A stretch of DNA of 64,000 bases from Candidatus Poribacteria bacterium. Lineage in GTDB: Bacteria; Poribacteria; WGA-4E; PCPOR2b. The stretch is from assembly GCA_022822005.1 (NCBI GenBank), contig JAJECO010000018.1, forward strand, positions 1-64,000. The letters are read 5' to 3'. Made by a program: the position numbers and the translations under genes. Under the pieces are notes generated by a model. It saw nothing but the letters and a program-made list of their open reading frames with translations. It ran no database searches and had not been told where the DNA came from. This document shows positions 5 through 61,900 of this stretch, one piece after another; positions within the stretch are counted from its first letter, which is position 1, and every line of letters starts with the position of its first letter.

Positions 5-1579
5 ATGTTTTTCAAACGTCAGAGGACTGTATCCACCGGCTACGCTGCCTCCAATTTCTTGCTTACTTGTTTCATTGTTGGGCTGCTAATCCTTTCGCTT
101 GCCTTTGTGTACTATACCCATCTGCTTATCCAACACACCAAAGTTTTCGAGAAACAGGTGGAACCATTGGCGAAACTTGAGGCTTTGCTTGCAAGTATCA
201 ACAATAGGCAGCTGCAAAATCAGTTGAGCCAGATTATTAAGGAGGGACTGGTAACTGAAAGCCGGCTCTCATTCATTATCACGGATGTTAACGGTCAAGT
301 TCAAATCGCTAAGAATCTCAACAATAAGACAATTGAAAGCAAAATTAAGGATGACATTCCGCTCTCTGACGCCGAGAAATCAAAACTCAATAAAATTCTC
401 AATCGGATGAAGCGGAACAAACCGATACCACTCCGTGATTTCCTGAACGATGGGTATGTTTATCATGGCGAGGCGGATGCAGATGCGATAGATCGATTGC
501 CCTTCGTCATAGCGGATTTAAAGAATAATCCACGGCAGTGGAAAATTTGGGATGAATTGCTCACAACAAAGACAGCTACATCGGAGCAATACGAGCGGGC
601 AAAGAGATTTGTTCATAATTCCAAAGCTGTGGGGCGGTACTCTCTATTGCAAACTAATCCTGGTTCCCTTCAGGGCTATTTATACCATGAGGTTATCCCT
701 GACTACGGCATCTTCGTCATGCCCGTCGTACTGGTCGCTGTGTTCTCGAGCATCTTGACTGTTGGCTTCTTGAGTTATCGGCGGATTAAAACCGTAGAGC
801 AAGCATCGATCTGGGGCGGACTCGCAAAGGAGACTGCGCATCAGCTCGGTACCCCGATTTCCTCCTTGATGGGGTGGATCGAGCTGTCGATGGAGTTGAA
901 CAAGCAGAAGGGTGACAATACAGCCTCTGAGATTTACGCGAATATGCAGAGCGACCTCACTCGACTCCAGCGCATTACAGAACGTTTCGGCAAGATTGGC
1001 TCGTATCCACAGCAAACGCGTATAAACATTAACTCCGTAATTAACGAAGCTGTTGCCTATTTTCAGACACGCTTGCCAAATCTAAGCAAACAGGTTGAGT
1101 TGCGCCTGACTGAGTGTGAACTGCCTGAAATTGCAGCGAATCCTGATCTGCTGCAATGGGTGTTTGAGAATTTGATCCGGAATTCACTTGATGCAATAGA
1201 TAACCAGAATGGTGTCATCCAAATCAATCCCCGGCTCCATCCGAAGGGGCATCAGATTGTCGTCTCATACAAAGATAACGGGAAGGGAATTTCCCGCAAA
1301 GACCGGAATAAAATCTTTCGTCCGGGGATGACAACGAAGGAACATGGCTGGGGGCTTGGTTTGACGCTTGTTAAGCGAATCATTGAAGCGTATCATCACG
1401 GACAGATCCGGCTCGTTGAAACGAGTTCAAAAGGCACCACCTTTGAGATTGTACTGCCCGTGGAGAACGTCGAAGACGAAAAAGCGTCGAAACGGTTGAC
1501 GGGACGACTGCTCTTCCTGAAAAAGCTAAAGCAGAACAGGAGAGGGGAACACAGTGTTGGCGCAAAATATAACGCGTAA
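5..1579 (+). CDS. membrane sensor histidine kinase, PorY-like
   Basis: Predicted inner-membrane kinase that phosphorylates a partner response regulator. The 524-residue protein has one membrane segment at about residues 18-40, an extracytoplasmic domain of about 190 residues and a second segment at about 235-257. No HAMP is obvious. The H-box AHQLGTP places the phospho-accepting histidine at residue 279, and the ATPase domain shows the N-box NSLDAI, DNGKGIS and GWGLGL. This H-box style is common in Bacteroidetes-type kinases. An in-frame TAG sits directly before the ATG, so the gene is complete although its RBS is outside the window. Its last 26 bases overlap the response-regulator gene, so the two are very probably translationally coupled partners. 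The stimulus is unknown. Confidence 0.88.
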   Translation: MFFKRQRTVSTGYAASNFLLTCFIVGLLILSLAFVYYTHLLIQHTKVFEKQVEPLAKLEALLASINNRQLQNQLSQIIKEGLVTESRLSFIITDVNGQVQIAKNLNNKTIESKIKDDIPLSDAEKSKLNKILNRMKRNKPIPLRDFLNDGYVYHGEADADAIDRLPFVIADLKNNPRQWKIWDELLTTKTATSEQYERAKRFVHNSKAVGRYSLLQTNPGSLQGYLYHEVIPDYGIFVMPVVLVAVFSSILTVGFLSYRRIKTVEQASIWGGLAKETAHQLGTPISSLMGWIELSMELNKQKGDNTASEIYANMQSDLTRLQRITERFGKIGSYPQQTRININSVINEAVAYFQTRLPNLSKQVELRLTECELPEIAANPDLLQWVFENLIRNSLDAIDNQNGVIQINPRLHPKGHQIVVSYKDNGKGISRKDRNKIFRPGMTTKEHGWGLGLTLVKRIIEAYHHGQIRLVETSSKGTTFEIVLPVENVEDEKASKRLTGRLLFLKKLKQNRRGEHSVGAKYNA

Positions 1580-3128
1580 AATTCTGTGGGTAGATGATGA
1601 GATTGACGCGCTGAAACCCCACATCCTTTTGCTACGCGAGAAATCTTACGACGTCACACCGGTTTCCAATGGGACTGATGCCATTTCACTGCTGAAGGAA
1701 TCCTACTATGATGCTGTTTTGCTCGATCAGGTTATGCCGGGGCAGGATGGTATGGCAACGCTTGATCGGATTCGTGAGATTAATCCCATCTTGCCGGTGA
1801 TTATGGTCACACAAGGCAGCGAGGACCGTCTAATTGATGAAGCACTGGGAAAACGAATCAGCGACTTCTTGGTAAAGCCCATTGGTGTTGCTCAAATTGC
1901 TTCAACCTTGAAGCGCGTACTGGATCAGACGCAGATTATTGAAGCACAGGTGCCACGTAACTATACCCACGATTTTAATCAGATTCGCGCAATTAAGGAT
2001 GCGAATCCAGACTGGCGGAAATGGATAGAAATCTATCTGAAATTGCTCGAGTGGGACCTTGAGCTTAATCATTTAGCACAAACTGGGCTTGAAGAAACAC
2101 ATTTGGAACAGAAAAAGGAATGTAACGCTCTGTTTTCTGATTACGTACAGGACAACTACCTCCGTTGGTTACAGGGCGAGGATTCTCCGATCCTGTCTGT
2201 TGATGTGGTCGAAAAATTCGTTATTCCCCACCTGCGTCAGGAACGCCAAGTATACCTGATTGTGGTTGATTGTCTGCGATTGGATCATTGGATAGCAATT
2301 GAATCCGTGCTTCAACCCTATTTCTATATTGATAGAGATTACTATTTCTCCATTTTACCTAGCGCAACGCTTTACTCGCGTAATGCGATTTTTAGTGGAC
2401 TGTTTCCGCAAGAGATCGCGGAAAGATTTCCACAATATTGGCAGGAGGATGCCACGGACGAAACCAGCACGAACCGTTATGAAAGGCACCTCCTCCAACT
2501 CCAACTCCAACGTGCAGGGATCAAGCTAAAGCCAGGATTGAAATATTTTAAGATCTTCGATACAAAAGGTGGGAATGAGTTCATACGCCAAGTCTCTTCG
2601 TTTGATCGAATTAGCCTTTCTGCTTTGGTTGTTAATTTTATTGATATGCTGACTCATCAGCGCTCGCAGTCAGACATTCTGCAACAAATTGCGCCGGACG
2701 AATCTGCATTTCAGTCCTTAACAAAGTCGTGGTTTGTTCACTCGGCGCTATTTGAGATACTGAAAATTATCGCGAAGCAGGATGCCACGATTGTTCTGAC
2801 ATCGGATCATGGCTCGGTTCTTTGCAACCGGCCATCAAGAGCGTACGGAAATCGCGAAACCTCTACAAGCCTTCGCTTCAAAGTTGGCACAAATTTAGGC
2901 TGCGACAGAGACCAAGCGATCTATATCGAAAATCCGAGACAGTATAGATTACCTGCTGAAAACTCAAGCAAGAACTACATTATTGCAAAAGAAGATTATT
3001 ACTTTGTTTATCCCAATCAATTCAATGAATATACCCGCCAGTTTCGGGGAGGCTTCCAACACGGAGGAATCTCGACAGGCGAATTGATTATACCCGTGGT
3101 CACAATGACTCCGCGCGAACAAAGTTAA
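1554..3128 (+). CDS. response regulator with PglZ domain, PorX-like
   Basis: The N-terminal receiver (residues 8-125) carries the acidic pair DD at 14-15, phospho-acceptor Asp58 and the conserved Lys near 106. A helical linker follows, then a PglZ/alkaline-phosphatase-superfamily domain from about residue 225. Putative metal and nucleophile residues are Asp239 (VVDCLRLDH), Thr272 in SATLYSRNA, and Asp418-His419 in SDHGS. This is the architecture of Bacteroidetes PorX, whose PglZ domain is a phosphodiesterase and which regulates type IX secretion. I chose the GTG at 1554 (TTG at 1557 is possible) because AGGAG lies at 1538-1542. It overlaps the upstream kinase gene by 26 bases. Family assignment is firm; any role in secretion here is inference. 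Confidence 0.87.
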   Translation: MLAQNITRKILWVDDEIDALKPHILLLREKSYDVTPVSNGTDAISLLKESYYDAVLLDQVMPGQDGMATLDRIREINPILPVIMVTQGSEDRLIDEALGKRISDFLVKPIGVAQIASTLKRVLDQTQIIEAQVPRNYTHDFNQIRAIKDANPDWRKWIEIYLKLLEWDLELNHLAQTGLEETHLEQKKECNALFSDYVQDNYLRWLQGEDSPILSVDVVEKFVIPHLRQERQVYLIVVDCLRLDHWIAIESVLQPYFYIDRDYYFSILPSATLYSRNAIFSGLFPQEIAERFPQYWQEDATDETSTNRYERHLLQLQLQRAGIKLKPGLKYFKIFDTKGGNEFIRQVSSFDRISLSALVVNFIDMLTHQRSQSDILQQIAPDESAFQSLTKSWFVHSALFEILKIIAKQDATIVLTSDHGSVLCNRPSRAYGNRETSTSLRFKVGTNLGCDRDQAIYIENPRQYRLPAENSSKNYIIAKEDYYFVYPNQFNEYTRQFRGGFQHGGISTGELIIPVVTMTPREQS

Positions 3129-5369: not shown

Positions 5370-5723
5370 ATGTATGCTGTATTTGCCTCTGGTGGGAAAC
5401 AACATCGTGTTCAGGTAGATACGTTAATTGACATTGAAAAGCTAGATACACCTGTCGGTGAAGAAGTAACCCTATCAGAAATATTGGCTATAGGTGATGG
5501 TAAAGGTAACGTGGAGGTTGGGGCGCCGTATCTCGATAATGCCGCTGTCATCGCCGAAGTTGTGCAACAGGCTAAAAACAAAAAAGTGGTTGTTTTTAAG
5601 TCGAAAAGGCGCAAAGGTTATAAACGAAAACTTGGACATCGGCAGCAATTCACCCGCTTACGTATCACAGAAATACGAAACGGACATACCGCATCTGAGG
5701 AGGGAACCCAAAATGGCTCATAA
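5370..5723 (+). CDS. rplU: 50S ribosomal protein L21
   Basis: Primary 23S rRNA-binding protein of the large subunit. The 117-residue product begins [14 protein letters not shown], the standard L21 start, and keeps the basic segment [16 protein letters not shown] near residues 75-90. It is slightly longer than the usual 102-105 residues because of a C-terminal extension (ITEIRNG onward). AAGGAG precedes the ATG by 8 bases. The last 11 bases overlap rpmA, so the two are translationally coupled as in most bacteria. Confidence 0.96.
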
Positions 5724-5979
5724 AAAAGGCGGCGGAAGTACTAGTAACGGCCGAGACAGTATCGGCAAGCGGCTTGGTGTCAAGCAGTTCTCCGGAAGTG
5801 CTGTGACCGCAGGAAGCATTCTGGTTAGACAGCGTGGGACACACATCCACGCGGGCCGAAACGTCGGGGTTGGAAACGACTACACGCTATTTTCACAAAT
5901 TGATGGGTACGTGTGGTTTGAGCGGAAAGATAAGTTCCGGAGAAAAGTTAGCGTCTATCCAGAGCGTCCCGATTTTTAG
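5713..5979 (+). CDS. rpmA: 50S ribosomal protein L27
   Basis: Large-subunit protein near the peptidyl-transferase centre. The 88-residue product starts [16 protein letters not shown], as expected for L27 without the cleavable N-terminal extension of Firmicutes. It continues with [14 protein letters not shown] and an FRRKVSVYP tail. The open frame extends upstream to 5494, but homology and the GAGGAGGGAA sequence near 5697-5706 fix the ATG at 5713, inside the end of rplU. Confidence 0.96.
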
Positions 5980-6009
5980 CCGTGCATACCATCAAATATG
6001 TTAAAATTA

Positions 6010-6038
6010 AAGCCTCGTCATTAAGCGGGGCTTTTTTT
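6010..6038 (+). terminator. rho-independent terminator of rplU-rpmA
   Basis: AAGCCTCG (6010-6017) pairs with CGGGGCTT (6026-6033) across an 8-base loop, and an uninterrupted T tract follows to 6038. It lies 31 bases after the rpmA stop. Confidence 0.9.
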
Positions 6039-6188: not shown

Positions 6189-8942
6189 ATGTCTAATTGG
6201 TATTCCCAAAAAATTCCACATCTTCTACATGAGTTCAAAACAGATCTCGAACGCGGGTTAAGTAGTGAAGAAGCGGCTGCGCAGCGTGCCAAATATGGAA
6301 ACAACGAAACGCTACAATCCCATGAAGAATCTCTCTTTTCCCTCCTGCTGAAACAATTTTCCAATCTAACCGTTGTCCTCCTGTTCGTCATTATCTGCAC
6401 TCTTTTCTACCTCCAGCGCGCGATTCATGAAATTTTGGTATTCTCAGCCATTCTCTGTTTTCATGTCCTTTGGCGCTTCATTCAAGTAGGCAAGGCGCAC
6501 TATCAACTCCAGTCTATTAGGACTCTCTTAGAAGTCAGTGTGTCTGTTATTCGGGACGAACGTGTTATCACACTGCCCCCTGTGGCTATTGTCCCTGGAG
6601 ATCTATTACTCCTGAAGGAAGGAGACTACATTCCCGCTGATGCCCGTATTGTAGAAGCAGATGGTCTGGTTGTTGATGAGGCGCCTGTGTTTGGCACGAC
6701 AACGTACACACACAAAACGGATGAAGAGATCTCGACGCCGAACTTACCGCCTGACAAGCAAGGTAATATGATCTTTGCGGGAACGTATGTTCTTGAAGGG
6801 GAAGCTCGGGCAATTGTTGTCAAAATCGGAAATCAGGTGGAAACAAGCAAATCTGCCCAACGTGCGACTGCGATCGTTGATCTAGATCCTGAAGCAGAAG
6901 TACAGATGAGCTTTTTTTACGATTATTTTCGCATTGCTGGAGCAGTATTAGCGGTGATAGCGGTTACCGTAGCACTTCTGTTTCAAGATAGGAGTGCGCA
7001 TTGGAGTGAACTTCTATTTCTCGGCCTTGGTTTTATCGTAGCAGCAATTCCTGAGGGAATCGCGTCGACAAGTCGGACTATTCTGTCTCAACACGCTTAT
7101 AGAATCTTACAGACGGGCACTGCGATTCGCAATCTTGTCAATCTGGAAAGATTGAGTAAACTTACAGCAGTTTGTGTTGATGAAGTAGGCAACTTTATGA
7201 CGGAGGAGATGACGGCTTCGCACATTTTCGTGAATGATGACCTCGTCGATCAAGAAATTTGGAAAACTTGGTTAGAATCCCACGATGAACAGATGTCGGA
7301 GGGTATCAGCGAAGATATAATTTCAGCAGCGCCATTGGATTCAGGAGTGCCTCCGGAGTTTCCACTGCTGATCTTACTCGCGAGTCGTTGCGTTGGTGAT
7401 ACACGTCCGAACGGTCTAGAGGGAACTTCGCCTGTAACACAAACAAGCGTTAGCACTACACTAAAACAAATCGCTGAAAGAATTGGATTTGATCTGGAGC
7501 GTTACAATGCGGCTTTCACTAAGATTGATGAGCAGGCTCAAACCCCGGAACGGCCATACGAAACGCTCGTTTTTGCACAGCAGGATGGAAGATTCTTGAA
7601 GCTGATGTTTGGAGAAGCGGAATCAATTCTGCAAACCTGTCATCGCGTTCAACTGGACGGCGCTGCTAACTACATGAGTTTTGACCAGAAACAGGTGATA
7701 CATCAGGCAATTGAATATCTATCAAACAGCAAAACTCGCGTTCTGGCTGTTGCGTATCGAAATTTAAACACTTTACCCTCAACGGAGGAAACGCAACACA
7801 ACATGACCTTTTTGGGCTTCATTACTTTTGTGGAGCAGGAGTACCCTGATTCACGGGAGATTATCCAATCTAGTCTTGATGCAGGCCTTAAAATTGTGAC
7901 ACTAACCGAGAGGGATAGAAACGCCGCTCTGGATATTGCTAAAGAACTTGCTATCGTTCAAGACAAACATGGTGTTGTTACACAAGAAGACTTAGCCGGG
8001 TTCACTAACGAACACTATGAGTCCATTGTAAATCGCTTGCTGGTATATTGTCGTCCTTCCACCGAACAGAAGCAGGATTTGGTGCAACATCTAAAACGCC
8101 TTGGCTATGTTGTTGGATTTTGGGGCAAATCGCCGCCGGATCTACGGGCGATGCGACTGGCAGATGTCAGTTTTGCTTCCGCTGTTCGATCGTCTCATAT
8201 TGTTCAACATCGAGCGGGGTGTGTGGTGCTTAAAGAGGGTTTTAGTGTTATTACAGATCTCTTGCGTCAGGTCCGTGAATCCTATATCAATCTGAGAGGC
8301 TCGATGCGTTGGCTGCTCTCTTGTGCACTTACGCAGGTTATCACTCTCGTCATGGGGTTCAGCTTACCGTATATTGGTTTCTTTTTCCCGCCATTACGTG
8401 ACCTACCTATGCCTTTGAATTTGCTGCAGCTGTTTTGGATTCATCTTCTCGTTAATCTGATACCATTAATGAGTTTAGGATATGAAGGCATCCGTGGAGA
8501 TTTCAGATATAGCAGACCTCAAAAAATTCCTCCCTTTCTATCGCGAGCTGATTTTCACGATGTGCTGCTGCGCAGTCTCGTTATCGCATCAATGGCTATC
8601 TTTAGTTTTATTCTTATCTCGGTGAGTTCGGATGCAACACAGCAGAACCCTCATGCTGCAGCGCAAACGGCCACCTGTACAACATTGATTTTGGGGTTGT
8701 TGATATCAAATTTCCAGTGCCATCGCCTTTTCTGGGAGTCCGTCTTTCAAAGAATAAAGGCAAATCTTCCCCTGTGTTTTACTGTTCTGGCTTGCATCGC
8801 ACTGCATCTCTCCATAGTCTATCTTCCAACAACGCAACAGATATTTGGCTTTGCACCACTCTTTAAAGAGTGGCAATGGCTGATCGCATTCTGTGCTGTT
8901 TTACTGTTCTTACCCTTAAACCTCACGATTCGTCGGCGTTAG
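6189..8942 (+). CDS. P-type ATPase homologue with degenerate catalytic motifs (probable pseudoenzyme)
   Basis: The 917-residue protein keeps the whole layout of a SERCA/PMCA-like cation ATPase: N-terminal cation-ATPase domain, actuator domain, PEGI in the M4 position, phosphorylation/nucleotide domains, and a C-terminal membrane bundle. Every hallmark is altered. TGES of the actuator reads FGTT (168-171). DKTGT reads DEVGN (331-335), so the aspartate remains but its essential Lys and Thr do not. KGAPE reads FGEAE (474-478), TGD reads TER (573-575), and the GDGxNDxPAL hinge reads FWGKSPPDL (644-652). The reading frame is otherwise intact, so this is unlikely to be fresh decay. ATP-driven transport seems excluded; a regulatory or scaffolding membrane role is inference. 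It stands alone after a terminator. Confidence 0.85.
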   Translation: MSNWYSQKIPHLLHEFKTDLERGLSSEEAAAQRAKYGNNETLQSHEESLFSLLLKQFSNLTVVLLFVIICTLFYLQRAIHEILVFSAILCFHVLWRFIQVGKAHYQLQSIRTLLEVSVSVIRDERVITLPPVAIVPGDLLLLKEGDYIPADARIVEADGLVVDEAPVFGTTTYTHKTDEEISTPNLPPDKQGNMIFAGTYVLEGEARAIVVKIGNQVETSKSAQRATAIVDLDPEAEVQMSFFYDYFRIAGAVLAVIAVTVALLFQDRSAHWSELLFLGLGFIVAAIPEGIASTSRTILSQHAYRILQTGTAIRNLVNLERLSKLTAVCVDEVGNFMTEEMTASHIFVNDDLVDQEIWKTWLESHDEQMSEGISEDIISAAPLDSGVPPEFPLLILLASRCVGDTRPNGLEGTSPVTQTSVSTTLKQIAERIGFDLERYNAAFTKIDEQAQTPERPYETLVFAQQDGRFLKLMFGEAESILQTCHRVQLDGAANYMSFDQKQVIHQAIEYLSNSKTRVLAVAYRNLNTLPSTEETQHNMTFLGFITFVEQEYPDSREIIQSSLDAGLKIVTLTERDRNAALDIAKELAIVQDKHGVVTQEDLAGFTNEHYESIVNRLLVYCRPSTEQKQDLVQHLKRLGYVVGFWGKSPPDLRAMRLADVSFASAVRSSHIVQHRAGCVVLKEGFSVITDLLRQVRESYINLRGSMRWLLSCALTQVITLVMGFSLPYIGFFFPPLRDLPMPLNLLQLFWIHLLVNLIPLMSLGYEGIRGDFRYSRPQKIPPFLSRADFHDVLLRSLVIASMAIFSFILISVSSDATQQNPHAAAQTATCTTLILGLLISNFQCHRLFWESVFQRIKANLPLCFTVLACIALHLSIVYLPTTQQIFGFAPLFKEWQWLIAFCAVLLFLPLNLTIRRR

Positions 8943-32023: not shown

Positions 32024-33172
32024 TCACGCTTCTATCCTGTGCATGACAACCAAATTATCCCGATGAATTACTTCGTTATAGGAATAGTAACCGAGTAACT
32101 TTTCGATTTCGCTGGTCTGTTTGCCCATAATTCGCTTCAACTCGTGGGTGTTGTAATTGACAAGTCCTCTGGCAAGTTCAACACCGTCTTCATCTACACA
32201 GGAGACTGTGTCCCCATGATTAAAGTTCCCTTCCACTTGCTGAATCCCGGATGGCAGGAGACTTTTACCGTGATGTACCAGTGCACGAGAGGCTCCACTG
32301 TCTACAGTCAGGTGACCCTTCGGTGGACGTGAATAGGCTATCCACCGTTTCCGACCGGACATCCGTTCCTGCGGGAGAAACAGCGTCCCAATCTTCTCAC
32401 CCGAAAGAATTCGATTGACAACTTGGGGTTCGGTGCCATTCGCAAGCACCATCATCTCACCGGATCCGGTGACAATTTCGGCGGCGTGCAGCTTTGTAGC
32501 CATACCGCCGGTTCCGCTCTGGCTGCCCGCGTTTCCCGCCGATCGTTTGAGTTCATCGGTAACGTCATAAACAAGACTAATCAATTTCGCATCGGAGTCT
32601 TTGCGGGGATCTGCGGTATAGAATCCATTTTGATCTGACAAAATAATCAATAGGTCCGCCTCGACAAGGTTGGTCACATACGCTGCAAGTGTGTCATTAT
32701 CGCCGACCTTAATTTCTTCTACTGCAACGGTATCATTCTCGTTGATAATTGGGAGCACTCCAAGCCGCAGCAGCGCGCGTAATGTATTGCTCATGTGTGT
32801 ATAGCGTTCGCGGTAGTTGAAATCGTCCTGCGTCAGCAGCATCGTTCCTGTAATTTGGTTATATTGCGAAAACCGATGCTCATAAGCGTGCATTAAGCGG
32901 GTCTGTCCTACCGAGGCTGCCGCCTGCAAGCCGGGAAGCGTTTGAGGCCGCTGTGTGAGTCCCAACCTCCCTGTTCCCGCGGCGATCGCACCAGAAGTTA
33001 CAAGTATAATCTCTTTGCCTTTCTGTTTCAAAGATGCGAGATCTTGTACCAGTGCGTCTATACGTTGAGAATCCAGATCGAAGTTTCTGGAAACAGTTGT
33101 GCTGCCAACCTTCACCACGACTCGACGAGCACGTGCTAACAGTTGACGGGGGTCAATTTGTGTTGATTTCAT
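32024..33172 (-). CDS. proB: glutamate 5-kinase with PUA domain
   Basis: First step of proline synthesis, phosphorylating glutamate with ATP. The amino-acid-kinase domain opens ARRVVVKVGSTTVS and has NENDTVAVEEIKVGDNDTLAAYV. A C-terminal PUA domain follows from about residue 275, as in E. coli ProB. The frame opens at 33199, but family alignment and overlap with obg favour ATG 33172 (382 residues). The start lies inside the last 20 bases of obg, an arrangement common in bacteria (obg-proB). proA is not in the window. Confidence 0.94.
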   Translation of the reverse strand: MKSTQIDPRQLLARARRVVVKVGSTTVSRNFDLDSQRIDALVQDLASLKQKGKEIILVTSGAIAAGTGRLGLTQRPQTLPGLQAAASVGQTRLMHAYEHRFSQYNQITGTMLLTQDDFNYRERYTHMSNTLRALLRLGVLPIINENDTVAVEEIKVGDNDTLAAYVTNLVEADLLIILSDQNGFYTADPRKDSDAKLISLVYDVTDELKRSAGNAGSQSGTGGMATKLHAAEIVTGSGEMMVLANGTEPQVVNRILSGEKIGTLFLPQERMSGRKRWIAYSRPPKGHLTVDSGASRALVHHGKSLLPSGIQQVEGNFNHGDTVSCVDEDGVELARGLVNYNTHELKRIMGKQTSEIEKLLGYYSYNEVIHRDNLVVMHRIEA

Positions 33173-34451
33173 CGGCGCTATATGTGAACTCGAAGGCATC
33201 GACTTGGACGGTGTCGCCTTCTGTGATACCAGCTTTGATGAGCGCGTTCAGGATGCCCATTTTTTTTAGTTTGCGATGGAGGAGTACCAGTGCCTGATCG
33301 TTTTCCATGTCGGTCATGAGGACGGCGCGGCGCGGTCCTTCGCCACGCACGATAAAACGATTTTTCTCCGTGATAAGTTCAAATCGTTCATCAGATTTGG
33401 GTATGTGGAAGGTTGGTTGGGATTGCGCGGTGTCTTGTCTTTCGCGAATTCGTGTATTAATTCGCTGCAAGAGTGAATAGGTTGCTCTGATTAGGTTATC
33501 TATCCCTTGCCCAGTGACCCCGGAGATCGGAAAGACACGCCGTTTCCCAAAATACGCTTTGACGCGGTGTAAATTGGCTTGCGCATCAGGAAGGTCAATT
33601 TTATTAAGAACAACCAGCTGTGGCAGGCGAGTTAGGCGGGGATTGTACCGTTCAAGTTCTGTATTGATCTGTTCGTAATCCGTGATGGGATCTCGACCGT
33701 CAACCGAACCGGTATCAATAACGTGGAGGAGCATCTTGGTGCGTTCAACATGCCGCAAAAAATCATGTCCCAATCCTGCGCCTTCGTGTGCGCCCTCAAT
33801 GAGCCCCGGGATATCCGCAAGCACAAAGTTGCGTTCGGAATCGACGCGGACAACACCTAAGTTGGGAGCCAACGTCGTAAAAGGATAATCCGCTATCTTC
33901 GGTTTTGCGGCAGAGGTACGTGCAAGTAGTGTCGATTTACCTCCGTTTGGGTAACCTACCAACCCGACGTCCGCAATCAATTTGACCTCTAAGGCGATGT
34001 AGCGTTCCTCCCCCGGCTCTCCCTTCTCAGCGACGCGTGGGGTCTGAAACGTGCTGCTCTTAAAGCGTGCATTTCCTTTGCCGCCAATCCCACCACGTGC
34101 GATCACCGCACGTTGTCCCACTTTTTGCAGATCGACAATGACTTCCTCTGTATCTGGACTTCGCACAATTGTACCAGTTGGCACTTTGACGATTCGATCC
34201 TCGGCATCCGCACCGTGCATCAGTTTTCCCATGCCATGTTGACCATTATCCGCAACCTGATGGGGGTTATATCGGAAGTCAATGAGTGTGCTTATCCCTT
34301 CGACGACTTCCAAGATAACACTTCCACCCTGTCCGCCATCACCTCCATTGGGACCGCCCCGCGGAACGAATTTTTCGCGACGAAAACTAATACAGCCATT
34401 TCCGCCCGTGCCGCCCTTCGCATAGATTTTTGCGGTGTCTGTGTTTAGCAT
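33153..34451 (-). CDS. obg: GTPase Obg/CgtA
   Basis: Essential GTPase that associates with the 50S subunit and links ribosome assembly to the stringent response. The 432-residue protein has a glycine-rich OBG domain (AKGGTGGNGCISFRREKF), a G domain with GYPNGGKSTL, DIPGLIEGAHEGAGLG and NKID, and a C-terminal OCT domain (ITEKNRFIVRGEGPRRAVLM). It overlaps proB by 20 bases. Obg and rpmA are usually adjacent; here they are 28 kb apart. Confidence 0.95.
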   Translation of the reverse strand: MLNTDTAKIYAKGGTGGNGCISFRREKFVPRGGPNGGDGGQGGSVILEVVEGISTLIDFRYNPHQVADNGQHGMGKLMHGADAEDRIVKVPTGTIVRSPDTEEVIVDLQKVGQRAVIARGGIGGKGNARFKSSTFQTPRVAEKGEPGEERYIALEVKLIADVGLVGYPNGGKSTLLARTSAAKPKIADYPFTTLAPNLGVVRVDSERNFVLADIPGLIEGAHEGAGLGHDFLRHVERTKMLLHVIDTGSVDGRDPITDYEQINTELERYNPRLTRLPQLVVLNKIDLPDAQANLHRVKAYFGKRRVFPISGVTGQGIDNLIRATYSLLQRINTRIRERQDTAQSQPTFHIPKSDERFELITEKNRFIVRGEGPRRAVLMTDMENDQALVLLHRKLKKMGILNALIKAGITEGDTVQVDAFEFTYSADEINTN

Positions 34452-34569: not shown

Positions 34570-35484
34570 TTAGGTGCCAGTCGTTTGCACGGTTGCACCG
34601 GTGGAATCGATGGACAGCACCTTGATGTCGCATGAAATCTGATTGCGCTTAAATGCTCCGACCATTCGAGTCGCGACTTCATCTGTTGATGTTGTACAGT
34701 AGGCTGCAACGCTTGGACCTGCTCCGCTCAGAGCCACGCTTAGCGCACCTGCACGCATCGCGGATTCAGCGACATCATCAAATCCAGGGATTAGGGAAGT
34801 TCTATATGGTTGGTGGAGCCGATCCGCCATTGCAAGTGATAACATTTCCAGTTTTCCCGTCGCAATTGCTGCTACCAACATGGAAGAACGACTCACGTTG
34901 TGGATGGCATCAGCGAAGTCAACTGTCGGAGGCAGAACCCCCCGCGCTGCCTTAGTTGACAGCGAGAAGTTTGGGATTGCCACAACAACCCGTAGATCTG
35001 AATCACAATCTAATTGAATCCAGTGTACATGGTTGTCCTCCATCATAGAGATGACTAAGCCACCTAATAGCGATGCTGCAACATTATCCGGATGTCCCTC
35101 AAATTCCGTGGCGAAGTCGAGCAATTCCGAGCGGGAAAAAGGTTCGTCGCATAAGGCATTCGCTGTCAACAAGCCTCCGAGTATCGCGGTGCCGCTGCCG
35201 CCCAGTCCTCGGATCGCAGGGATTCCATTTGTTAGAACCAACCGCAGGCCGCTCGGCTTATAGCCAGCCTTGTCGAAAACCACATTTGCAGCGCGATACG
35301 CAATATTGTTTTTATTGTTAGCGAGCTTATCTACATCAACGCCCGCGACCTGAATTTCCGTTCCCGCGTCAATCTCTTCAAGCGAAATTGTGCTATAGAG
35401 TTGGAGTGCAAGTCCAAGGACATCAAAACCCGGTCCTAAGTTTGTCGTGCTGGCTGGAACGCGAGCCGTTGCTTTGCTGGGCAT
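34570..35484 (-). CDS. thrB: homoserine kinase
   Basis: GHMP-family kinase phosphorylating homoserine for threonine synthesis; 304 residues. The N-terminus ARVPASTTNLGPGFDVLGLAL is typical, the ATP loop is RGLGGSGTAILGGLLTANAL, and the C-terminal motif is VALSGAGPSVAAY. It follows the aminotransferase gene by 27 bases, suggesting an aspartate-family amino-acid operon. Its pathway partner ThrC is encoded at 28661-29809. Confidence 0.94.
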   Translation of the reverse strand: MPSKATARVPASTTNLGPGFDVLGLALQLYSTISLEEIDAGTEIQVAGVDVDKLANNKNNIAYRAANVVFDKAGYKPSGLRLVLTNGIPAIRGLGGSGTAILGGLLTANALCDEPFSRSELLDFATEFEGHPDNVAASLLGGLVISMMEDNHVHWIQLDCDSDLRVVVAIPNFSLSTKAARGVLPPTVDFADAIHNVSRSSMLVAAIATGKLEMLSLAMADRLHQPYRTSLIPGFDDVAESAMRAGALSVALSGAGPSVAAYCTTSTDEVATRMVGAFKRNQISCDIKVLSIDSTGATVQTTGT

Positions 35485-35511: not shown

Positions 35512-36678
35512 CTATCGAATTCTTGAGATTGCCGAGTCCATGCGCGCCAAGGCCTCTTGGATATTCTCTAACGAATTTGCATACGACAGCCGCAAGTAGC
35601 CATCGCCATATTTACCGAAAGCGGTGCCGGGCAGGACCGCAACGCCTGCATCTTCAAGTAGGTAGTCGGATAGGTCTTGACAGGAAAGGGGTAGTCGTGA
35701 AACATTTGGAAATACGTAGAATGCGCCAAGGGGCTTGATACAGCTTACACCTTCAATTGCATTTAAACCGTCAACGATGGCATCACGCCGCAGTCTAAAC
35801 TCGGTGACCATATCGTGGACAAAATCTTGTGGCCCCGTCAACGCCTCCATCCCTGCAAATTGTGTAAAAGTGGCGGTACACGAGTTGGAGTTAATGGTTA
35901 GCTGTGTAATCTTATCCGCGAGTTCTACAGGAGCCACTCCATAACCCAACCGCCAGCCGGTCATAGCATAGGTCTTGGAGTGTCCCTCAAGCAGAATCGT
36001 TCGCTCCTTCATACCCGGCAAACTGATTAGACTGTCGTGCACACCTTCATAAAGGATTCGCGAGTAAACTTCATCTGTTAGCACATAGAAATCATGCTTC
36101 GTGGCTAACTCTGCGATTGCTTCCAAGTCACTCTTTTCCAGTGTGCCTCCTGTCGGGTTTTGCGGTGAGTTGATAATCAAGAGTTTTGTCCGGTCTGATA
36201 TAGCATCCTCAAGATCTTCAATCCGAAAGCGGAAGCCAACCTCCTCACGTAGTGGAAGCGGGACGGCTTTGGCGTCAATGAAGTCAATGACAGATTCATA
36301 AATAGGAAATCCGGGGTTAGGATAAATAACTTCATCTCCCTCATCGACAAGTGCCAAGATGGTAAAGAAAATGATAGGTTTGGCACCAGGTGTAACCGTG
36401 ACTTCATCCGGATGAATTGCTATACCACGCGTTTCCGAAATATGTTCAGCAATAACTTCACGAAACTCCAGTAGCCCCGCGGAGGGACCGTATCCAGTGT
36501 GACCGTCCTTCATCGCCTTGAAGGCTGCTTCACAAATATTTGCAGGGGTTATGAAATCAGGCTGACCGATTTCAAGGTGAACAATGTCTCTCCCCTGCGC
36601 TTCCAGTCCCTTGGCTTTGGCAAGTACTTCGAAGGCAGATTCCGTTCCCAAACGGTCCATTCGATCTGCAAATTCCAT
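35512..36678 (-). CDS. class I/II pyridoxal-phosphate aminotransferase, aspartate aminotransferase-like
   Basis: Cytosolic 388-residue transaminase. The PLP lysine lies in LEGHSKTYAMTGWRLGYG near residue 232, with NSPQNPTGG (about 168) for the cofactor and substrate carboxylate and YLRLSYANS near the C-terminus. The sequence fits the aspartate/aromatic/MalY-like Ib group common in bacteria. Position immediately before thrB points to aspartate or oxaloacetate metabolism, but alanine or another amino acid remains possible. Confidence 0.9.
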   Translation of the reverse strand: MEFADRMDRLGTESAFEVLAKAKGLEAQGRDIVHLEIGQPDFITPANICEAAFKAMKDGHTGYGPSAGLLEFREVIAEHISETRGIAIHPDEVTVTPGAKPIIFFTILALVDEGDEVIYPNPGFPIYESVIDFIDAKAVPLPLREEVGFRFRIEDLEDAISDRTKLLIINSPQNPTGGTLEKSDLEAIAELATKHDFYVLTDEVYSRILYEGVHDSLISLPGMKERTILLEGHSKTYAMTGWRLGYGVAPVELADKITQLTINSNSCTATFTQFAGMEALTGPQDFVHDMVTEFRLRRDAIVDGLNAIEGVSCIKPLGAFYVFPNVSRLPLSCQDLSDYLLEDAGVAVLPGTAFGKYGDGYLRLSYANSLENIQEALARMDSAISRIR

Positions 36679-36741: not shown

Positions 36742-37779
36742 CTACTTTGATGATGACACAACGAAACCATTATTGCCAGCAACCCAAACGTTGTTTGCAT
36801 CCAACACAAAAATACCGTTTGCGGGCACCTTACTGATGATGGGATCATCAATGGTTTGCGTTACCCATGTCGCTCCACCGTCGGTCGTATGAAGGATAAT
36901 ACTGACACCTAATCCACCCCCGGCAGCCCAGCCTACTGCACTATCGGCGAAGCTGACGCTTAACAGTTTTTCTTCCGTCCCGCTCGGTTGGATATCCCAA
37001 CTATCGCCGCCATTGGTAGTGTGTAGGACGATGCCGTTTTCGCCTACCGCCCAACCGTTATTGGCATCCACAAAGAAAATATCTTCGAGAATGTCGGGAA
37101 TATTGGTAGGTTGATCCGTCCATGTTTGTCCGGCATCAGTCGTCTTCTGGACTAAGCCATCTTGCCCTCCAGTTTCCGGACTAATCCGAACCCCTGTCAC
37201 CCAACCTGTCGATTCATCAATAAACTGGACCGCGTTAAGCACAACAGTTTCCTCATCCCCCACAGCAGCGGCTACCTCACCACCACGTAAGACACTCCAC
37301 TGTTTGCCTCCGTTAGTAGTTTTTACAATCGTTTCGTTCATTCCAACCGCGTAGCCTACCTTGGGGCTGACGAAGTTTACGCCTTTAAGCCAGTTTCCTA
37401 CCTTACTCGTTTGGATGTCCCAGCGTTTGCCGCCATTTGATGTTGCAACAATCATCCCCTGCTGCCCGACTGCCCATCCATTTTTCTTGTCAAAAAAGTA
37501 GATATCTGTAAGCATTTGCTCGATAGGCACTTCCGCTTTTTCCCACGTTCTACCACCGTCTCTGGTGTGTCCAATATATCCCGGGCTCTCCATATCTAAA
37601 GCCGATACACCTGCGACCCAGCCTTCCCTTGAGCTAATAAAAGCGATTCCATTATAATCCCGAACATCCTCTTGGTCCATCTGTTGCAAAATATCCCATT
37701 GTCCACCAGCGTGGGGTACGGTTGTTGTGAAGACAACCCCCAAAATCATTCCCAATAAAGCAACTCTTTTTTTCAACAT
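36742..37779 (-). CDS. exported YCF48/HCF136-like beta-propeller protein
   Basis: A 345-residue secreted or periplasmic protein with an N-terminal signal peptide (LLGMILGVVFTTTVPHAGG) and a series of about six YCF48/BNR-type blades. Each blade has variants of GWAVG followed by HTTNGGDSWDIQ or KTTDAGQTWT. In plants and cyanobacteria the family helps assemble photosystem II, but in non-photosynthetic bacteria its role is unknown. It has its own promoter on the minus strand and appears monocistronic. Confidence 0.88.
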   Translation of the reverse strand: MLKKRVALLGMILGVVFTTTVPHAGGQWDILQQMDQEDVRDYNGIAFISSREGWVAGVSALDMESPGYIGHTRDGGRTWEKAEVPIEQMLTDIYFFDKKNGWAVGQQGMIVATSNGGKRWDIQTSKVGNWLKGVNFVSPKVGYAVGMNETIVKTTNGGKQWSVLRGGEVAAAVGDEETVVLNAVQFIDESTGWVTGVRISPETGGQDGLVQKTTDAGQTWTDQPTNIPDILEDIFFVDANNGWAVGENGIVLHTTNGGDSWDIQPSGTEEKLLSVSFADSAVGWAAGGGLGVSIILHTTDGGATWVTQTIDDPIISKVPANGIFVLDANNVWVAGNNGFVVSSSK

Positions 37780-41920: not shown

Positions 41921-44359
41921 TTATTCACCTTTACGAATCACGAGCCGATAGTGCTGACCGACCTTCTTGGTGTCAGTAATTTCATGTCCGTCGTTCGTGA
42001 GGCTCTTGGGAACGTTTTCAATCGGTTCACCATCGTCAATCGTAATTTCGAGCAGCTGACCAACGTTCATCGTCTCCAAGCGGATTTTGGCTTGCACGTA
42101 ATTAAACGGACACGCCACACCTTTGAGGTCAAGACTGTCAACGATCTCCTCGACCACCTCGGCTTTCGGCGGTGCCTTGGGGATACGCGCCGGTCTGGCT
42201 TCCCGTTTCTGAGTAGCTGATTCCTCCTCCTGCCGAATGCGCATCCGTCCGTAGACGTTATGTGCTTCCTCGACAAAGAGGGTTGCTTCCTCAACACGGC
42301 GGTGAGTGAGTTCCCTATCAAAGGTGCTGGCATCCTCCTCAGTCGCCTTGAATATATGCGCGCCAAATCCGGGGAAGACGATTCCCGGTTCAAAGAAGCG
42401 ACTACGGAACTCCCTAACTGTCGTCTCATTGTCAATATGTTGCTGCCCCTCGGTCGTCAGCAGCGCGTCTGCGGCTTTGATCATCGCTTCATAAGCGTGT
42501 TCAGCAGAATTCACATATTGATCGCGCTCCAGATCGATTCCTGCCTCATAGATGAGTCGATCCGCCTCTTCAAGTATGAACGAGACCAATTCTACCAATG
42601 CCCCCGCACACTCGCCAACGCCCGTCTTGAGTTGGAATTCCTTCGTATCGCCGGTGTCGATATAGTAACTGGGGTCTTCCTCGAAACTCGGAATCTTATC
42701 ATACTCACGAAGGATCGCCTTGATCTCGACCTTGCCGAGTCTTGCAATATAGTCGGTGAAAGACTCATCTTCATGCCGTTCATCAAGGTACTTTCCGGTC
42801 AGATGCTCGATGAATTGCGGGATGTTCCTTCCGTGGATCTTTCCGGCAGCAAGCCCATAAGCGCTTGCATTCTCAACAGCGTGACCGCCCAACAGAACCT
42901 GATAATACGGGGCGATATGTTTCCCCATACGTCGTGATGAGCCAAAGAACCCGATGTTTGCGATGTGGTGTTGACCACACGAATTGGGGCAACCGCTGAT
43001 CTTGATTCGCAGGTCTTGGATCTCTTCGTTCACACCGGTTTCGATGAAGTAATTCCGCAAGTAAGCTGCTAATCCACGAGAAGATGAGATACCCAGTTTG
43101 CAAGAATCAGTGCCAGGGCACGCTGTGATATCAACTGTGCTTTCAGCACCCGATGCTCCTAAACCGATCGCCTGCAAATCCTGATAAAGGGCTGGTAGAT
43201 CGCTCATGCTAACCCAGCGCAGAACAAGATTCTGCTCGACGGTGGTGCGAATAGTGTCCTTGACATACTTGCGTGAAATATCTGCCAATGCACGTGTCTG
43301 ATCTGCGGTGATGTCTCCGAGCGGCAGCGTGATACTGACGACCGCGTATCCGGGCTGTCGTTGGGGACGCACGTTTGTGGCATGCCACTCATCAAAACCC
43401 TCCGGGTTTGATGCACCGTTCAGCTGCGTCGGCGGTTTAAGCGGTGTTTCATCAAAGGCATCGAGGTTATCAAGATGAGCTGTCCAAGCTGGGTCATGAC
43501 GCAGTTGTTCGCGTTCCTCCAACACGAGACGACGAAATTCTTCGATACCAAGATTTGAGACTACAAATTTCATCCGCGCCTTGTTGCGATTCTTCCGCTC
43601 TCCAAGGCGGGTGAACACTCTCGAAATTGCCTGCGAGATTGGCAGTAATTCCTCTTCAGGCACAAACTCGTCAAAGACTTTTGCCTGATGTGGAACAGCA
43701 CCAAGACCGCCACCTACCAGTAATTTAAACCCGCGTTTCGGCTGTCCATCAACTTCCTTAATCGCTGCGACTGCGCCGATATCGTGCATGTATCCTAAGC
43801 CACAAGCGTGTTCGTGACACCCAGAAAACGCGATCTTGAACTTGCGTCCGAAGTCTTGTGCATCTTGGTGACCCAATAGGAAGGCGGACAACGCCTTAGA
43901 GTGGGGTGTCACATCAAAAGGTTCATCGTTACATACCCCTGACAGCGGGCAGGCGGTGACATTCCGAACCACATTGCCGCACGCTTCCTTGGTAGTTATG
44001 CCAACCGACGCCAGCCGTCGCATTAGCTCCGGCGTATTGTTGATATCGACGTAGTGATACTGCACGTCTTGGCGAGTCGTGATGTGAATGATGTTATCCG
44101 AAAATTCTTCGGCAACATCAGCGAGCATTTCCAGTTGTTGTGCATTTAAGCCACCGAACGGAATTTTTACGCGAATCATCTGTGATCCTTCATCGCGCTG
44201 TCCGTAGACGCCGTGACGCAGTCTAAATTCGAGGAAGATCTCCTCTGGCATCTGACCCGCTTGGACACGCCCGAGCTGCATTTCATAAATTTCAATTGCG
44301 CGGGCCTCCTCCGAATCTATTGCATCAGCGTTAAAAGGTGCTAAACTTTCTGTCGCCAT
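41921..44359 (-). CDS. siroheme sulfite/nitrite reductase fused to a TusA-like domain
   Basis: Cytoplasmic six-electron reductase of sulfite or nitrite. Residues 1-560 form the duplicated ferredoxin-like and siroheme domains. The coupled [4Fe-4S]-siroheme cysteines are Cys414, Cys420, Cys457 and Cys461 (CX5C and CX3C). Residues about 600-720 form a helical region (EEADRLIYEAGIDLERDQYV) resembling HEPN-type helices. Residues 740-812 form a TusA/SirA-like sulfur-carrier domain with Cys750 in LKGVACPFNYVQAK. The fusion suggests that sulfide or sulfane sulfur is passed to the carrier domain. Electron donor and choice of sulfite against nitrite are unresolved. It is monocistronic with a terminator. 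Confidence 0.88.
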   Translation of the reverse strand: MATESLAPFNADAIDSEEARAIEIYEMQLGRVQAGQMPEEIFLEFRLRHGVYGQRDEGSQMIRVKIPFGGLNAQQLEMLADVAEEFSDNIIHITTRQDVQYHYVDINNTPELMRRLASVGITTKEACGNVVRNVTACPLSGVCNDEPFDVTPHSKALSAFLLGHQDAQDFGRKFKIAFSGCHEHACGLGYMHDIGAVAAIKEVDGQPKRGFKLLVGGGLGAVPHQAKVFDEFVPEEELLPISQAISRVFTRLGERKNRNKARMKFVVSNLGIEEFRRLVLEEREQLRHDPAWTAHLDNLDAFDETPLKPPTQLNGASNPEGFDEWHATNVRPQRQPGYAVVSITLPLGDITADQTRALADISRKYVKDTIRTTVEQNLVLRWVSMSDLPALYQDLQAIGLGASGAESTVDITACPGTDSCKLGISSSRGLAAYLRNYFIETGVNEEIQDLRIKISGCPNSCGQHHIANIGFFGSSRRMGKHIAPYYQVLLGGHAVENASAYGLAAGKIHGRNIPQFIEHLTGKYLDERHEDESFTDYIARLGKVEIKAILREYDKIPSFEEDPSYYIDTGDTKEFQLKTGVGECAGALVELVSFILEEADRLIYEAGIDLERDQYVNSAEHAYEAMIKAADALLTTEGQQHIDNETTVREFRSRFFEPGIVFPGFGAHIFKATEEDASTFDRELTHRRVEEATLFVEEAHNVYGRMRIRQEEESATQKREARPARIPKAPPKAEVVEEIVDSLDLKGVACPFNYVQAKIRLETMNVGQLLEITIDDGEPIENVPKSLTNDGHEITDTKKVGQHYRLVIRKGE

Positions 44360-58971: not shown

Positions 58972-61900
58972 ATGCAGTCGAAATCTTTCCATCCCAAAAA
59001 GATTGAGATAAATTCTATGCGCATACGTAGCAAACACCTAATCCTATTTGCCTGTCTTGGGGTGACTTTGATCCTTGCAGGTGTTCTTTTTTTACGTTCT
59101 GCCTATGTTCTTAACCGGGTGCGCCTCGTCTTAGAATCTGAACTCCAGAAGCGCACAAAACACCCGGTCGCCATTGATACGGTTTCGGGCAATCTATTCA
59201 CTGGCTTGAATATCAAAGGAATTCAAATCACAGATGCAAATCCGGCAAACCCGCCTCTGATTGCTATAGAAGAGATTCGCGTAAAATATAGCTTATGGAA
59301 CTTGGCGCAAAGGAAAATCCTCATCCCCCAATTTCATGTTCACCAACCCCGGGTTAATACGCGCATGGCAGCTGATGGAACCATTAATTTAACCGAGCTA
59401 ATTCCAGAAGTTGAATCAGGTGGGGGGGGGAAATTTCCGCTGCAGCTGCTGATTTCTGAAATAGTTATTGAGGATATCAGTGTCGAAGATGGTATTATTG
59501 TTTTTGAGGCTGCAGACGGTTCCCACAGAGTCAGAATCGGTGGTATCTACAGCCGCAGTCGTGTTGATGGTTCTCTAAGGAACTGGAACTACCGTGGCCA
59601 GTTAGAAATACGAGATGGAGGTCTTGAACTGAACGGTGTTGAAACGCCGATTGACGAGTTTAGAACGGAATTTGAGCTCCAGAAGGATCGGGGTGTGCTG
59701 CACTCTTTACGCTTGGCACTGGGAAATTCTCTTCTGATCCTTGCTGGTGAGGCCAACAATCTTGGTCAACGGTCTTCGCAGCTTGAAACACAAATGCAAA
59801 TGACCTTTGACTTTCGCGACATGCAGAAAATTTTTCCTATTCCAGCCGAAGTGGAAGGGGTGGGAGAGATGAACGGCGAAATCAGTGGTCCAGTATCAGA
59901 AATCGCTGGCAGCATCGCAGTTAGCCTCCCTTCCGTCCGGTTAAGTACTCTCCAATTCGAGAATCTCGCAATTCGAGCCGAGTTCACACCCCATAGCGTC
60001 CGTATTACCAATATGGATGCGCTGTTCGCGTCCGGAAAGCTGACAGGGGGAGCAGAAATAAATTTACAACCCCAACAAGAAGAAAGTCCTACCTACAAAG
60101 GTTGGGCACGGTTTGACTCCCTTCGAGCAGAGGAAGTCCTACCGCTTATAGATTTTCCCCAAAGTGTTTTGGACCTCAATGCTGATTTGAACGGGATGGT
60201 TCAATTCACCGGCAATAGCTCAGACCTTCGGAAGCTCAGCCTTGACGGAAGTATGGAATTAGATGATGCGCGTCTAAATGGGGTGCCAATTCGACCATCG
60301 GTCGCGCGATACCGGCTCAAAGATGATCATCTATCAGTTGCGGCAAACCTTGATGACGCAGAAATCCAAATCCATGGCAGGGCAGGGTTAACTGGATCGC
60401 ACGATATGGCTTTGCGGATTGAAAGAATTGACGTAGGCAAACTGTCGCGAATCATGAAGATACCGGATCTTGGCGGCGAAGGTGTGCTCACCGGAAAAAG
60501 TAGTGCCGGGGCAGGGGATAACCCCGAATACTCCCTACAGGGCTTTCTCCGGGTTCCTGAAGCTACCCTGTACGATGTGCCAATCGGTGTGCTGACAACA
60601 GACTTTCTCTATACGGAAAATCAGGTGTTGCTGAACTCAATCCGCCTTGCTAAAGGGGACAGTGAGTTGATCGCCGATGGAATCGCCCGGTTAACGGAGG
60701 ACACGCCAATCGAGCTTAAGGTGCGCGCTCTCCCACTCCAAATTGCCGACTATGTGCGATTGGCAGGTGATGATTACCCAATCGAAGGGGTTGCAACGGG
60801 CAAGTTAGTATTAGATGGAACACTAGCTCGCCTTAATGGTCGCGGCGTGCTGCAAATTCAGAGTGCCAAGGCTTGGGATCTAATGCTTGATCCGTTGGTG
60901 TTGCCAATAGAGATTGAGAACTATGTCGTCAAAGTGCCAGATTTTGAGGTATTCACTCGCGGTCAGAAAGGCATCCTTAACGCACAGATTAATCCGAATC
61001 AAGACTATATCCTCGATTTTCAGAGTGAATCCATGAAACTAGCAGAGATAGCCCTCGCACGTGGATTGACCGATTTCTTATTGGACGCTGATCTAATTGT
61101 TACAGCAAAGGGGCAAGCAAATGCGGTAGATCCTGTTGTAGATGTTGCCTTCGATTTCTCAAACGTTACTTATGCGGGCAACCCACTGGAAGATGTCCAC
61201 ATAACGGGCATCTACACAAATAATGCCCTGAACTTTGAAGGAGTAGGATTTAATGATACCTGCCAAATCAGAGGGGTTTTGGAGTCTGTGGAAGGAATTC
61301 CATATCAGATAGCTGTTGATGCGGTCGGAACCAATCTCCTCCCATTCCTGCGGATCTTTAACTTGGCGGACTATTTTACCGGTACGGCTGATGGTAGAAT
61401 TGAAATCGAAGGAATTCTTGATGATCTGTCCCAGCTTAAGTTTGACATGACGTTGTCCAACGCTGCGCTTGATGTGAAGGGACGTCGGGTGACTAATCCC
61501 GCTCCTATTCGGGTGGCCTTTATGGACAACCTGTGGCGTGTTGAATCCTTTGTACTTGCAGATAGCCGGGACGCTACTCCGTTCCTGAATGCGGTCGGCA
61601 CTTTCCCCATTCGGAGCGAGATAGGAACACCTGCCCGCACGGAGACCACCAGTGAATTTGCTTTTACAGTAGAGGCAGACAGATTCCCACTTGAAGGCTT
61701 AGCGCGCTTATTGGGATTAGCACCGCTCTGTTCGGGAGATATCAACTATAGACTGACGGGCAGTGGAACCTATGAAGCCCCACAGTTGGAACTCCATTGG
61801 AATATTCCCGATATGATGCTCCACACTCCCATTGGGCAGATATCGATTCGTGAAGCTGTAGGTGGGCTCGCCTATAAGGATGGCAGTCTTAACGTTGAGT

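Follow-up and report, generated by a model that had tools for sequence, protein, structure and literature searches.

A phylum-wide family of P2A-like ATPases with altered catalytic motifs in Poribacteria

The P-type ATPase homologue encoded in the 64,000-nucleotide stretch of poribacterial DNA analysed here (the window) is a member of a phylum-wide family rather than one odd gene, and the original observation of its altered catalytic motifs holds more strongly than first stated. Members of the family have full-length homology to P2A ATPases, have lost catalytic residues and M5/M6 cation ligands family-wide, form one clade, and are under strong purifying selection in every domain. The inactivity and conservation of this pseudo-ATPase are well supported; its functional role is inferred. 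Very probably, a catalytically inactive pump fold has been retained for another role, with the absence of activity and of a phosphoenzyme inferred without experiment. The explanation that we favour, with moderate confidence, is a pseudoenzyme of P2A-type fold that lost pumping in an early ancestor of the Poribacteria and was kept as a membrane regulator or scaffold of fixed conformation.

The pseudo-ATPase frame begins with ATG and has no internal stops. It is open under translation table 11, and an alternative genetic code is unneeded. Both the complete 917-residue frame and the readable P-type fold layout given in the preliminary description are confirmed. Pfam matches comprise the P-type cation-ATPase N-terminus, the E1-E2 ATPase (A) domain and the cation-ATPase C-terminus, which together satisfy full-length homology as a mark of P2A descent; the Pfam hydrolase (P) and Cation_ATPase (N) models do not match the 917-aa protein. 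Its top NCBIfam model is the PMR1-type P2A, at 251.7 bits far under the cutoff of 798.3, and PHROGs return only a generic ATPase match. Among proteins of solved structure, SPCA1 and Listeria LMCA1 are nearest in sequence. AlphaFold2 predicts the full P2 fold both for the window protein (pLDDT 84.5, pTM 0.77) and for a second member with 22% identity to it (pLDDT 82.4, pTM 0.79), and with Foldseek the two models meet the expectation of a P2 ATPase with a long M5 and A, P and N domains. For both models the best matches are E1-state P2 ATPases, at TM values reaching 0.79; most E2 states score 0.47–0.61. This E1-like shape may reflect training bias, as no canonical control was modelled.

SERCA-equivalent positions of the window protein were read from the columns of an alignment of the family with canonical sequences, using SERCA residue numbering (Table 1). 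All five of the motifs listed in the preliminary description are indeed changed, but its ‘loss of all five’ is overstated, since D331 and D651 (the D707 equivalent) remain. The changed catalytic positions are E183 (T170 in the window protein), K352 (E332), T353 (V333), T355 (N335), K515 (F474), G626 (E574), D627 (R575), D703 (K647) and N706 (P650); still there are D351 (D331), T625 (T573), K684 (K628) and D707 (D651). The comparison of ion-binding residues in M4–M6 with SERCA, proposed at the outset, finds every M5/M6 cation ligand replaced (N768 by A713, E771 by Q716, N796 by H752, T799 by V755 and D800 by N756). The Ca2+-ATPase ligand set E309/N768/E771/N796/T799/D800 is thus not met, and the M4 Glu (E289) alone is kept, in the window genus. 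Because D331 and the M4 Glu remain in this genus, residual or altered activity of the window protein cannot be excluded.

Table 1. Positions in the window of the pseudo-ATPase, its altered or retained motifs, and genes and features of its present and ancestral neighbourhoods
Feature	Position	Strand	Remark
rplU (5370–5723) and rpmA (about 5713–5979)	5370–5979	+	New upstream neighbours after the inferred inversion; sequence read directly
Terminator-like hairpin and T-run between rpmA and pseudo-ATPase	6009–6034	+	One consensus match; shuffles average more
Pseudo P-type (P2A-like) ATPase	6189–8942	+	917 aa; full A/P/N domains and membrane bundle
A-domain dephosphorylation loop, TGES to FGTT	6690–6701	+	Residues 168–171
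M4 PEGI	7050–7061	+	Residues 288–291; kept in window genus; Glu gone in most other genera
DKTGT to DEVGN	7179–7193	+	Residues 331–335; Asp kept here, N/Q/E/S/H in many orthologues
N-domain KGAPE to FGEAE	7608–7622	+	Residues 474–478; no family member with Lys
TGD to TER	7905–7913	+	Residues 573–575; G626 position acidic in 66/68 orthologues
K628, SERCA K684 equivalent	8070–8072	+	Basic (K/R) in 67/68 orthologues
GDGxND to GKSPPD	8124–8141	+	Residues 646–651; D703 gone; D707 equivalent (D651) kept in 67/68
M5 cation site, N768/E771 to A713/Q716	8325–8336	+	
M6 cation site, N796/T799/D800 to H752/V755/N756	8442–8456	+	
ObgE GTPase	33153–34451	-	In relatives beside rplU-rpmA; adjoins thrB in the window, at the other inferred inversion breakpoint
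Homoserine kinase ThrB	34570–35484	-	Adjoins pseudo-ATPase in other Poribacteria families
Aspartate-type aminotransferase	35512–36678	-	75% identical to pseudo-ATPase neighbour elsewhere
YCF48-like exported protein	36742–37779	-	Third member of ancestral cluster

The same losses recur throughout the family. We tabulated motifs and key residues for 68 pseudo and 40 canonical sequences. In the 68, the K515 position is Phe in 57 and never Lys, the D703 position is mostly Q, E, K or R, and the K352 position is Glu in 59; the G626 position is Glu or Asp in 66, while 67 sequences have a basic residue at 684 and 67 keep the Asp at D707. One family supplies most of these sequences, and the count was therefore redone with one sequence per genus (n = 18). 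K515, D703, N768, E771 and D800 occur in none of these representatives, while position 684 is basic in all 18, D707 is Asp in 17, and position 626 is acidic in 16. Measured against an active P-type ATPase, the TGE motif fails (E183 is replaced in nearly all orthologues, with possible, alignment-dependent retention of the TGES Glu in the G077 orthologue), as do the nucleotide-binding Lys of KGAPE (0/68), the Mg2+-binding Asp pair of GDGxND (D703 in 0/18, D707 kept) and DKTGT, of which the window protein keeps the Asp with the remainder altered and about half of the genera lack even the Asp. More broadly, canonical sequences have 141 columns with conservation of 90% or more; of these, 33, many in the A-domain core, are kept in at least 80% of genus representatives, and 53, including many catalytic positions, are kept in at most 20%.

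The family is nearly universal in its phylum. Of 73 genomes of the order, 72 have a matching P-type homologue, and so do 84 of the 85 Poribacteria genomes. The pseudo form is encoded in 83 of these 85; G017 (81% complete) gave no match, and G074 has only a canonical P2A copy whose catalytic motifs are intact. The orthologues are single-copy and nearly all are single open frames, some interrupted by contig ends. Near relatives, in L032 and L033, are 94% and 79% identical. Orthologues sharing the changes, which the preliminary description had proposed to look for, thus exist phylum-wide. The catalytic set is absent from all 68 near-full-length Poribacteria homologues examined, several of them from single-contig genomes. 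This agreement among independent genomes stands in for the proposed resequencing and rules out sequencing error or a misassembled MAG as the source of the altered motifs.

Outside the phylum, a search of 302 genomes with the family profile found no match in the family range: scores drop from at least 820 bits for full-length Poribacteria copies to at most 614, so that these genomes give no sign of horizontal spread beyond Poribacteria. Forty of the outside matches were retrieved. One (L154) was left out as read in the wrong frame and another (L161) is a fragment, in which those motifs that it contains are intact; the other 38, readable in full, all have canonical motifs. Because the 68 Poribacteria homologues share the loss and these 38 sequences are canonical in the same alignment, the motif loss is not due to chance or sequencing error.

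Phylogenetic analysis separates the two forms once. In a quick tree of 77 sequences, which came with a warning of long branches, a single change divides pseudo from canonical forms (98 SH-aLRT). A more careful mixture-model tree of 36 sequences has a single pseudo/canonical split at 100/100, present in all 200 bootstrap trees examined, and this rules out multiple origins. Nearest the canonical side of the split is the pseudo copy of G073, a genome from another class of the phylum; this copy has no gene neighbours in common with the family, and its placement rests on the tree alone. G073 also holds canonical P2A fragments (L038, L041 and L042). The co-occurrence is a possible sign of origin by duplication, and it fits a paralogue that later became the sole P2-type copy in the class of the window, although MAG contamination is not excluded.

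The position of the catalytic Asp varies within the family. Among the 18 genus representatives it is Asp in nine, Asn in five, Glu in two, Gln in one and Ser in one, and in the wider orthologue set N, Q, E, S or H occur in many lineages. At least six state changes map to the tree, with the gene kept throughout. Because the Asp has been replaced in so many lineages, we infer that phosphorylation is dispensable. The family could instead be a working non-canonical P-type transporter, as claimed for ERMA, driven by ATP or another phosphoryl donor and moving a different substrate. Such a transporter would accommodate D331 in the window genus and the Asp in nine of 18 representatives, together with the nearly invariant D707 and basic 684, and it has a reported precedent: one group described ATP-dependent, Asp-dependent Mg2+ transport by ERMA despite its DKQGI and GSSANL motifs and missing TGES (PMC13322241). 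However, that activity is disputed by another group, who report neither ATPase activity nor bound Mg2+ in six cryo-EM conditions (PMC12134183). In Poribacteria, moreover, the nucleophile is N, Q, E, S or H in half of the genera with the remainder of the family still constrained, no member has K515 or D703, and the ion ligands of M5/M6 are gone. We regard a working transporter as quite improbable.

Selection on the gene is strong. We estimated dN/dS by the Nei-Gojobori method for pairs with at least 75% amino-acid identity. Values for the pseudo-ATPase range from 0.075 to 0.199 and lie at about 0.11 (0.13 for the window against its 94%-identical relative); neighbouring genes in comparable genome pairs give 0.03–0.23. 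The family thereby meets the definition of a pseudoenzyme, purifying selection despite the loss of catalytic residues. Domain medians are 0.106 for A, 0.078 for P (the lowest), 0.126 for N and 0.095 for M5–M10. The P domain has lost its chemistry yet is the most constrained, which argues for a function of this domain and not for decay. A gene in decay, a pseudogene in progress that has so far escaped stop codons, would explain the missing catalytic motifs, and one copy is in fact broken: in G078 (64% complete; L043, 5689–8555) the gene is split over two frames by a real frameshift or an assembly error. Retention in 83 of 85 genomes, with divergence down to 22% identity, dN/dS of about 0.11 and nearly all copies in single open frames, nonetheless rules out the pseudogene reading; as a general account it is refuted, and we give it practically no weight. 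The early inference of selection rather than recent decay is thus upheld, both by the suggested dN/dS check (0.08–0.20, well away from 1) and by the phylum-wide orthologues with the same losses.

The constraint on the membrane bundle bears on a further alternative, that a passive, motor-less bundle acts as a lipid or solute binder, a channel or an uncoupled carrier. Strong constraint on M5–M10 and the change of charged ion ligands to neutral residues are both consistent with this, and lipid is present in the membrane domain of TMEM94 (PMC12134183). A membrane-only role, however, would not be expected to leave the cytosolic P domain as the most constrained part of the protein, and we consider this alternative unlikely without dismissing it.

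The gene neighbourhood is conserved in much of the family. Gene context and REARRANGEMENT give the order YCF48-like protein, aspartate-type aminotransferase, homoserine kinase and pseudo-ATPase, on one strand, in 44–45 of 60 loci, and the gap between the last two genes is mostly <200 bases in clustered loci. Homoserine kinase and aminotransferase adjoin the pseudo-ATPase across Poribacteria families. In relatives of the window, rplU lies directly upstream of obgE (G003, G012) or a few kb away (G001, G004). The simplest account of the window arrangement is a ∼28-kb inversion, confined to this genus, with breakpoints at rpmA/obgE and thrB/pseudo-ATPase within 6000–37779. The pseudo-ATPase stayed intact after the inversion separated it from the ancestral cluster, which suggests that it is not kept merely as a cluster member. 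A dedicated partner operon is ruled out: the linkage to homoserine kinase and aminotransferase is broken in the window genus, so these are not required neighbours. The hairpin between rpmA and the pseudo-ATPase can be called terminator-like only, as such matches are common by chance, and a promoter scan found no sigma-70-like site above chance and none convincing directly upstream of the pseudo-ATPase.

Other genes of the window are of separate interest. At 5–3128, a PorX-like response regulator that carries a PglZ domain follows a histidine kinase, and the pair is conserved upstream of rng-rplU-rpmA in the genus; regulators of this type are best known from T9SS control in Bacteroidota. An unusual fusion of 812 aa (41921–44359) joins a nitrite/sulfite reductase-like protein to a TusA domain at its C-terminus. 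At 58972–63999, an ORF of at least 1,676 aa that runs past the window end combines an AsmA/YhdP-like N-terminus with a TamB-like stretch, of the inter-membrane lipid transport type.

The pseudo-ATPase might act on another P-type ATPase in the same cell, as the regulatory subunit of a heterodimer, and most genomes do encode exactly one further P-type ATPase. In the window genome, however, this further ATPase has a CPC motif and is of the P1B-like heavy-metal type, only 23% identical over partial length. In some genomes no second copy is seen, though completeness is an issue, and P-type ATPases are mostly monomers. Such a partnership seems to us very unlikely.

Under the pseudoenzyme explanation, pumping would have stopped in an early Poribacteria ancestor, followed by single-copy, vertical inheritance, and the present protein would run no Post-Albers cycle. 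We conjecture that the P domain was remodelled and now holds a fixed structure. The phosphate-contacting Gly of TGD is replaced by an acidic residue (66/68); its carboxylate, held by K/R684 near D707, could replace the phosphate, and the contact would keep the headpiece in a fixed position against the membrane bundle. Held in this E1-like shape, the protein would bind another protein or a ligand and serve in the membrane as a regulator or scaffold. The carboxylate-for-phosphate lock remains a hypothesis read from sequence columns alone. The regulator or scaffold role in one fixed conformation is itself tentative, at somewhat less than even confidence, and no partner has been identified. The non-catalytic role proposed in the preliminary description is accordingly supported as to catalytic loss and conservation, but any specific role stays an inference. 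More speculative still is the full scenario of a Ca2+ pump turned into a near-universal, single-copy structural or signalling protein, with an internal carboxylate in place of phosphate and a single conformation, as a counterpart of the pseudokinases.

Compared with P2A Ca2+-ATPases (bacterial LMCA1, human SPCA1/PMR1 and SERCA), the Poribacteria family is alike in full-length homology, domain order and predicted fold, but all of its catalytic motifs are altered, its M5/M6 ligands are gone, and it forms a clade separate from all canonical P2A sequences sampled. Like pseudokinases and other pseudoenzymes, whose roles are experimentally known, it has a fold under selection after the loss of catalytic residues, although the fold differs. 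The nearest known parallel, by analogy, is TMEM94/ERMA, itself disputed. Both have P-type architecture, and TMEM94 lacks TGES, has DKTGT changed to DKQGI and GDGVND to GSSANL, and is of doubtful activity (PMC12134183, PMC13322241); it differs in being eukaryotic (human ER membrane) and larger and in keeping DK. In profile and fold searches the canonical P2 ATPases come first, and TMEM94 is not among the matches listed, with no direct comparison made. The P4-ATPase domain of the apicomplexan guanylyl cyclase PfGCbeta, described as degenerate (PMC6592433), is likewise a P-type module, reported to be missing most of the signature residues and found beside a signalling function; it belongs to a protist protein in which a P4-type domain and a cyclase are fused, whereas the Poribacteria protein is free-standing, P2A-like and bacterial. 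In the open literature searched (subscription papers were outside its scope) we found no paper on a bacterial P-type pseudoenzyme family, nor any joining ‘pseudo-ATPase’ or ‘pseudoenzyme’ with P-type ATPases, and a keyword search of a 2023 superfamily review shows no mention of such a bacterial family. The initial statement that no P-type family of this kind is established therefore stands for bacteria as far as this search reaches, but the disputed TMEM94/ERMA and the degenerate PfGCbeta domain precede it.

P-type ATPases are regarded as obligate pumps, and TMEM94/ERMA, the main non-catalytic candidate, is disputed. As a case found in nature, the Poribacteria family is clearer: it is bacterial and phylum-wide, its nucleophile has been lost repeatedly, and its fold and P domain are under strong selection. 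It also supplies many independent sequences for asking what the pump fold does without ATP.
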